A DNA stretch of 64,000 nucleotides from an uncultured Prevotella sp. (GTDB lineage: Bacteria; Bacteroidota; Bacteroidia; Bacteroidales; Bacteroidaceae). Below are positions 38,120-39,790 of the stretch, piece after piece (position 1 is the stretch's first letter; every line of letters begins with the position of its first letter). The stretch lies in NCBI GenBank assembly GCA_945833995.1, contig CAMAGM010000001.1, positions 1 to 64,000 on the forward strand, in the 5' to 3' direction. The translations under genes were made by a program, and so were the position numbers. Below the pieces are notes generated by a model. It was not told where the DNA came from and ran no database searches. It was given only the letters and a program-made list of their open reading frames with translations.

Positions 38120-39082
38120 TTATCGTGCTTCTCCTTCTACAGGATTCTCCGTTCCTGATTGCCAACTTTTAATAGTTATTTCGGAAAGAGAGAATCCCTC
38201 TTTTTTAAGGGTCAATTTGTATATATACTCATATCCACCTTTAAACTCTACACCACCAGATGGGACGGTATACTTATATCCATTATCGACATCAACATAT
38301 ACACCTATCATTTTTGTTCCACCAGACACTGTTTGAGGTGGAATGATACAAGACACTCCCGATGTGCATAGTGCCTCTACTGCATCAGATTCACACACAT
38401 ATACATAGCCTGTACTACCCGTACCAGTTGCTTTTAATTCCGCACCAGTAGCTGATATTGTCGCATTTCTCATAATGCCATACAAATATAAATTTGAAAA
38501 ACCAGTTTTAAAATCAGCTAAATCATAAGCTTCTGATGGATCTTCTACTATTACAGTAATCTTAGACATGCAATGATTGAATTCCAGCGGAATTGGGTTT
38601 GCAGGATCCACATTGGTTGTAAAAGCATACATCAAATCACTCTTTCTATAGTTTGCATCTGTACTCTGATCTTGCTGAACTGCAAATGATGTTGCATCCC
38701 AAGTCATTTGATTTCCACTTGCGTCTTTGGCTGGATAAACTGCACGAGCCTCTAACTGATCACCAGAACCCAATACATACAAATCAGCGTCTGTTGTCCA
38801 ACCGACAGGAGTCTTGGTATATGTCACATAGCCATTTTCTGGCAAGCCCTCTATCATAGTACAATGAACACCGTCAGGAAAAACGCTAATTGCCTCTCCA
38901 TCTAAGAAATCTGTATTTTGGAGTTGAGATTCATTACCACTTGAACGGGTTTGCATTCCTTTTATTCCTACAGTGATTTGAAGTGGATGTTTGGTAGATT
39001 CAATAGAGTAGTCATCCCTACTACTACAAGCCGCGAACATTGTGCCAATGCAGACGGCGATTAAAAACTGTTTAATTTGCAT
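38120..39082 (-). CDS. Fimbrillin-family (Mfa-like) lipoprotein
   Basis: MQIKQFLIAVCIGTMFAACSSRDD lipobox; ITVGIKGMQTRSSG, DGEAISVF, PIPLEFNHCMSKITVIVEDP typical of fimbrillin-like proteins. Confidence 0.75.
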   Translation of the reverse strand: MQIKQFLIAVCIGTMFAACSSRDDYSIESTKHPLQITVGIKGMQTRSSGNESQLQNTDFLDGEAISVFPDGVHCTMIEGLPENGYVTYTKTPVGWTTDADLYVLGSGDQLEARAVYPAKDASGNQMTWDATSFAVQQDQSTDANYRKSDLMYAFTTNVDPANPIPLEFNHCMSKITVIVEDPSEAYDLADFKTGFSNLYLYGIMRNATISATGAELKATGTGSTGYVYVCESDAVEALCTSGVSCIIPPQTVSGGTKMIGVYVDVDNGYKYTVPSGGVEFKGGYEYIYKLTLKKEGFSLSEITIKSWQSGTENPVEGEAR

Positions 39083-39493
39083 AGATTTTTGTTTTAAGTT
39101 TGCCTATAGGTTCTCGGAGTCGGCGTTAAAAAATTAATTGTATTATACCTATAAACGAAAATGCGTGGAACCTGGCATTGCCTGTTCCATTTGTCGAGGT
39201 TCTGGACTACCCTACAATGTAGAACGGCAACGCAGAACCCACGCAGTGGAGTTTATATAATTATCCATAACACATAAATGCAGACAAAAGAAAGTCCACG
39301 TTATGCGTACAGAATCATGTATAAACTGCTACATGAGCATCTATCGTTGCTAAGTCCTGACATTGTATGAAATTGTCCAGATTTCGACAAATCAGAAACG
39401 AAGCGCATGATAAACGCCTTCTCATAAATAGTAACCCCCGAAACACCGAACACTTTCGATGCTCGCTTTGCAGCGACTAACGGAAGTCGGGGG
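39083..39493 (-). ncRNA. Predicted structured 5' leader RNA of the fimbrillin-like gene
   Basis: Promoter at 39494-39525; three-way junction 39435-39493; long hairpin 39162-39245; no plausible CDS. Confidence 0.6.
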
Positions 39494-39525
39494 CAAAAGT
39501 AAGAATTTAAATCGAAACTTCCAAA
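39494..39525 (-). promoter_or_regulatory. Promoter of the fimbrillin leader
   Basis: On minus: TTTG (39525-39522), 20-bp spacer, TACTTTTG (39501-39494). Confidence 0.65.
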
Positions 39526-39637
39526 TTTTCAGAAAGAAAAATGCAAAAGCATCGTCATTTTCTTTAAAATGGAACAAAAAACGAGCGGCAAAGCAAAGCT
39601 TCACCGCTTTTTTTGTTAAAGAGATAATAGATAAATT

Positions 39638-39737
39638 GATTTTCGCCCAAATGTGGGGTAAAAAGGGTAGATTTGGGCAAAAGCTGATGGATTTTCGCCC
39701 AAATGTGGGGTAAAAAGGGTGGATTTGGGCGAAAATC
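39638..39737. repeat. 52-bp tandem duplication of a hairpin (GATTTTCGCCCAAAT...ATTTGGGCGAAAATC)
   Basis: Copies start at 39638 and 39690; the second has perfect 15-bp arms 39690-39704/39723-39737. Confidence 0.8.
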
Positions 39738-39790
39738 AAAAAACATAGGGAAAAGTCAGAAAACATAGGTGAGGTGTGGTTTTTTATTTG

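Follow-up and report, generated by a model that had tools for sequence, protein, structure and literature searches.

A large pseudoknotted leader RNA upstream of accessory surface and defence genes in Bacteroidales, a candidate transcription attenuator

Structured RNAs that likewise emerged from comparative genomics in the phylum of the organism studied here include Bacteroid-trp, Bacteroidales-1 and Bacteroides-1 (RF01692-RF01694; portion of PMC2864571 covered here), and a collection of candidate RNAs from the human microbiome, which draws on a similar sequence source, contains some Bacteroidetes-specific motifs (portion of PMC8040213 covered here). Riboswitches with terminator platforms have in common with the leader described below a long structured 5' leader whose unpaired core bases are conserved, a terminator strand with mutually exclusive pairings, and many genes per genome. 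Second-messenger riboswitches, for example the c-di-GMP types, have similarly mixed regulons. The put/EAR RNAs and the UpxY-dependent capsule leaders of Bacteroides lie before surface-polysaccharide operons, and some copies of the present leader stand directly before UpxY-like genes. The leader was found in a 64,000-nucleotide stretch of an uncultured Prevotella sp. (the window) and differs from each of these systems. The Rfam models of Bacteroid-trp, Bacteroidales-1 and Bacteroides-1 match neither the window nor 20 homologous loci. The microbiome motifs, as described in the covered portion of PMC8040213, measure 38-132 nt, and none resembles the leader. Two mutually complementary loops, kissing hairpins and a pseudoknot distinguish it from any Rfam model; compared with put/EAR and UpxY capsule leaders it is far larger, mostly precedes other genes and has its own terminator-like hairpin. 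The window copy is about 410 nt long and the class about 350-450 nt, which is exceptional because the median 5' UTR of B. thetaiotaomicron is 32 nt (portion of PMC7366714 covered here).

No Rfam 15 family matches the leader, which agrees with an earlier interpretation of the window (the sequence-only reading) that could match its 5' end to no known riboswitch. A cmscan of the window yielded no match at the gathering threshold and nothing plausible around the leader at E<=5, and a scan of the 20 homologous loci found no family apart from two tRNAs; among all these sequences no known riboswitch family was matched. Group I introns and other Rfam ribozymes were absent at the gathering threshold, with no relevant match in the window at E<=5. 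An analogy to group I introns, based on a strand order resembling P3/P7, was dropped because of the lack of an Rfam match. No earlier description of the leader was found in searches of openly available papers, nor in the covered portions of PMC2864571, PMC8040213, PMC7366714 and PMC10994844. The existence of a leader RNA class is well supported by the comparison of sequences among the copies described below.

Table 1. Positions of the leader elements and neighbouring features in the window.
Feature	Position	Strand	Remarks
Promoter	39494..39525	(-)	TTTG 39525-39522, N20, TACTTTTG 39501-39494; sequence motif
5' domain	39435..39493	(-)	P1 closing hairpins a and b
P1 strands	39493-39487 with 39441-39435	(-)	CCCCCGA/UCGGGGG
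Hairpin a	39463..39476	(-)	UCGCU-GCAA-AGCGA, within P1
Hairpin b	39443..39462	(-)	GCAUCGAA-AGUG-UUCGGUGU, within P1
Helix HA	39401..39420	(-)	AAGGCG..CGCUU; 97% of cells paired
Big loop I	39354..39398	(-)	Helix I, 39397-39392 with 39360-39355
H5'	39392-39384	(-)	Inside loop I
hp1	39385-39369	(-)	Inside loop I
hp1 kissing loop	39381-39375	(-)	UCUGGAC
G5'	39367-39360	(-)	Inside loop I
E5' element	39337..39350	(-)	E5' GCAACG 39350-39345, then conserved AUAGAUGC
Hairpin C	39245..39336	(-)	Variable length; R2-R1 spacing
D5'	39238..39244	(-)	GCGUGGG; partner D3'
E3'	39227..39232	(-)	CGUUGC; partner E5'; pseudoknotted with D
Big loop F	39180..39228	(-)	F5' 39228-39222, F3' 39187-39180
G3'	39220-39213	(-)	Inside loop F
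hp2	39211-39198	(-)	Inside loop F
hp2 kissing loop	39207-39201	(-)	GUCCAGA
H3'	39197-39189	(-)	Inside loop F
T5'	39184..39189	(-)	UGGAAC; 5' half of local terminator hairpin; overlaps H3', F3'
D3'/T3'	39151..39171	(-)	GUUCCACGC, then U-rich tract AUUUUCGUUUAU
Element J	39102..39125	(-)	CGCCGACUCCGAGAACCUAUAGGC; near start codon; subset of family
Fimbrillin-like gene	38120..39082	(-)	Mfa_like_1 lipoprotein, downstream of leader

The sequence-only reading had proposed a three-way-junction RNA at 39435-39493, directly behind a TTTG-N20-TACTTTTG promoter. The promoter motif is present as described immediately before P1, and so is the exact sequence of the junction, which RNAfold returns as both the MFE and the centroid structure of the 5' domain (-28.7 kcal/mol vs. 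-18.3 on average for shuffles; z -3.37; as good in 0/200 dinucleotide shuffles). Because the -7 box ends at 39494 and adjoins P1, the transcript may lack the initial C's of the P1 5' strand. The closing bases seen here are confined to the window copy and L009, and the remaining copies in the same genome form the same two-hairpin junction with other closing bases, GAC(A)..UGC/GCA..(U)GUC. In the wider family, P1 closes the 5' domain in 93 of 101 copies; 31 copies have a three-way junction and 51 a plain hairpin. The P1 helix covaries (permutation z -12.8), in support of the sequence-only reading. Its "compact fold", however, turned out to be one domain of a much longer leader: the stretch through the fimbrillin start (39495-39060) folds at -143.8 kcal/mol compared to -102.5 by chance (z -8.0), and the three-way junction, at its very 5' end, varies more than any other domain of this RNA. 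Just upstream of the promoter, between it and a divergent gene, positions 39635-39769 contain direct and inverted repeats, with a 48-nt unit present twice and ATTTGGGCGAAAATC arms.

In its own assembly, a blastn search with promoter and leader retrieved 21 matches, about 11 of them long, at 69-84% identity. Most of the long matches stand before genes for fimbrillin-like lipoproteins, and the unit conserved among these paralogues (alignment A1) consists of promoter, leader and first codons. A conserved ATG follows P1 in the own-genome alignment without a frame-conserved ORF, and a leader-peptide attenuator was rejected since indels shift the frame among the paralogues. The same search over relatives gave two weak foreign matches and no more. 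As the sequence alone is too diverged, covariance models were required, and these were built from separate parts of the leader, the 3' domain (R1) and the 5' core (R2). According to R2 the genome contains 17-18 leader copies; two of this genome's copies, L022 and L025, have diverged strongly, and the former stands before a helicase/PLD-like gene. Matches to R2 occur in 114 of 174 genomes of the genus (E<=0.01), in 146 of 251 family genomes, which represent 22 of 30 genera (E<=0.001), and in 25 of 247 genomes of the order. R3, a related model applied with stricter filters, had no match in a phylum-wide sample of 347 other genomes; this null result acts as a control for false positives and points to a restriction of the leader to Bacteroidales. 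An R1 match follows the R2 match on the same strand at a distance of 37-121 nt in 74 of 77 copies, and 124 paired copies, order-level loci included, were gathered. Many gut Bacteroidales carry 1-18 copies per genome. Among the carriers are Prevotella sp. P5-92, P2-180 and P5-50, and also plasmids of Phocaeicola dorei, P. vulgatus and Bacteroides finegoldii, with the P. dorei and B. finegoldii plasmid copies matching both models. One culturable carrier is P. dorei CL06T03C03, whose plasmid pBdorCL06T03-4 has the leader ~60 nt ahead of INE79_RS23945. In a sequence-pattern search of genome contigs, 9 of 13 matches were discarded as chance on the basis of their sequence or of a non-Bacteroidales organism.

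From 5' to 3' the leader comprises the P1 domain, HA, helix I with H5', hp1 and G5', then E5', C, D5', E3', F5', G3', hp2, H3', F3', D3' and a U-run. Helices H and G, which are hypervariable in sequence, link the big loops I and F, the loops of hp1 and hp2 kiss, and D crosses E to form a pseudoknot. The kissing loops are copy-specific pairs, UCUGGAC/GUCCAGA in the window, UCUCGCA/UGCGAGA in L018 and UCUGGUA/UACCAGA in L009. Loops I and F of the same copy pair with a mean of -35.4 kcal/mol vs. -15.6 when swapped between copies, a comparison in which phylogeny is not modelled explicitly, and in 64 of 69 copies no other copy's loop pairs better than the own partner. Runs of at least seven pairs are found in 66/69 copies for H, 67/69 for the kissing loops and 63/69 for G, as opposed to 35%, 24% and 17% in the swaps, which likewise leave phylogeny implicit. 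D covaries with a permutation z of -6.6, and E reaches only -2.7 because it is highly conserved and varies little; an alternative pairing of E3' with an extension of F3' was dropped (z -0.4). For HA, I and hp1 together, 90.9% of cells are paired in 76 distinct rows, compared to 29-50% in slid alignments, and two-sided changes number 46 vs. 18.6 +- 4.5 after shuffling. Hairpin C sets the distance between the R2 and R1 matches, which ranged over 37-121 nt among the first 74 copies; short variants come down to about 7 nt. Several natural variants were observed. L204 (1396-1777) is a tandem pair of leader copies with nearly no C hairpin ahead of one gene, CCGGGG replaces GCGUGG as D5' in L111, L114 and L149, which are followed by LytTR-like genes, and L049, L056 and L059 (Prevotella sp. 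P5-92 and P5-50) are natural deletions of D5', E, C, F5' and G that retain the P1 domain, HA, H as a hairpin, T, the U-tract and the gene.

The 3' end of the leader offers two competing structures. D3' is followed by a T-rich tract with at least six T in nine positions in 69 of 73 copies (background 2.7%), which is weak in the window copy and some others (AUUUUCGUUU). The D3' strand has an alternative partner, T5', a segment at the H3'/F3' boundary with which it forms a local hairpin abutting the U-run; T5' was assigned by covariation analysis for the family and by eye for the window copy. This terminator hairpin is present in 108 of 122 copies, and its dG is <= -5 in 82 of 122 vs. 13.7% of shuffled controls. 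The T hairpin of the window ends 4 nt short of the U-run and was left out of the 122-copy scoring. D3' can pair either with D5', in the pseudoknotted fold, or with T5', in an ordinary terminator hairpin, and the two are mutually exclusive. Both alternatives covary (D5'/D3' z -10.5; T5'/D3' z -10.1), and clear cases are L228 (CGUGAAGC/GCUUCACG) and L200 (GCGUGAAGCG/UGCUUCACGC).

Start codons cluster 56-84 nt past the 3' model match. In 67 of 74 copies the core is preceded, at a distance of 42-181 nt, by a promoter box (TAnnTTTG). More broadly, a promoter motif precedes the core in 104 of 118 copies and occurs between U-run and start codon in only 1 of 92 copies with a start codon at most 130 nt away. 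The sequence-only reading had left open whether the element is a cis-regulatory RNA or an sRNA; these counts speak for a cis-acting leader and disfavour the sRNA. Its specific link to a fimbrillin transcript did not hold, as the leader stands before many unrelated genes across Bacteroidales. The 109 downstream proteins represent 77 Pfam families, among them BspA-type LRR (16) and Mfa_like_1 (7), restriction/SNF2/DEAD helicases, NusG (UpxY-like), LytTR, PLD and others, and a simple pattern finds signal-peptide-like starts in 68 of 119 downstream proteins. The PADLOC models HKD+Snf2, BrxP, mad6 and PD-T4-6 are each represented by one to few members. In Bacteroides-like genomes, UpxY-like and methyltransferase-like genes are also found downstream. 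What unites the targets is that they are accessory genes for surface and defence functions; they do not form a pathway. In L010, L014, L020 and L053 a peptide gene (about 45-47 codons, KKxKKxYESPTMKVYEIGxSQILAGS-type) separates the leader from a fimbrillin-like gene of 510-530 aa. Small proteins encoded downstream of L165 and L175 resemble RiPP precursors, with a twin-arginine-like stretch at the N-terminus and a C-terminus rich in Cys and Gly.

The arrangement of these elements suggests that the leader is probably a cis-acting transcription attenuator, of the terminator/antiterminator kind, which acts on accessory genes for surface and defence functions. With the large fold stable, F and H would sequester T5', D would sequester the 3' strand, and RNA polymerase would read into the gene. 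When the large fold is unstable, T would form and transcription would stop about 60-80 nt ahead of the start codon. We infer this polarity, with the pseudoknotted fold as the antiterminated and T as the terminated state, because the fold holds both strands of T. However, D likewise abuts the U-run, which makes the polarity assigned here tentative, and the variants in P5-92 and P5-50 keep T without its competitors, which would not be expected of a strong terminator.

That the leader precedes long surface genes and, in L121, L123, L124, L142, L150 and L223, UpxY-like first genes could also indicate a processive antitermination or loading element. Acting by itself (put/EAR-like) or together with a NusG/UpxY-type protein, such an element would modify RNA polymerase to pass later terminators, and the U-run would be a pause site. 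This is unlikely, however, because many target genes are short, most targets are not themselves UpxY-like, and the covariation of hairpin T with the U-run strand would be superfluous. About equally improbable is a leader whose fold governs ribosome access or mRNA decay, for example via element J (GCC..GGGAG..GGC). The fairly constant distance from leader to start codon and the location of J near the start codon in 20 of 118 copies would fit this function, but most copies lack J, and the best-conserved 3' feature is the U-run 60-80 nt before the start codon and not a structure over the start.

A free-standing sRNA that merely neighbours the genes would account for a promoter motif and a terminator-like end; it is very unlikely given that a same-strand start codon usually follows closely and that an intervening promoter motif is so rare. 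Still less credible is a DNA-level element, such as a mobile element or recombination cassette with palindromes acting as DNA. The multiple copies and the conservation of leader plus signal-peptide start among the own-genome paralogues would be in line with such an element, yet the position between promoter and gene is fixed, the covariation is copy-specific and tolerates G-U pairs, and the targets are unrelated.

Beyond attenuation as such, a single undescribed class of signal-sensing RNA might act as a common on/off switch of the accessory genome in gut Bacteroidales (surface proteins, pili, capsule and defence), with copy-specific self-complementary loops letting many copies fold in one cell without mispairing; we hold this broader idea tentatively, at somewhat less than even confidence. 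With about 350 nt, several pseudoknotted contacts and no entry in Rfam 15, the leader would be among the larger unassigned classes of cis-regulatory RNA in the human and animal gut. One leader ties together genes that face the host, phages and competitors, including pili, BspA-like repeats, capsule starters, and restriction and BREX-like genes. The coordination of surface and defence loci in Bacteroidales thereby becomes directly testable, and a ligand or protein partner, if found, would point to a new signal.
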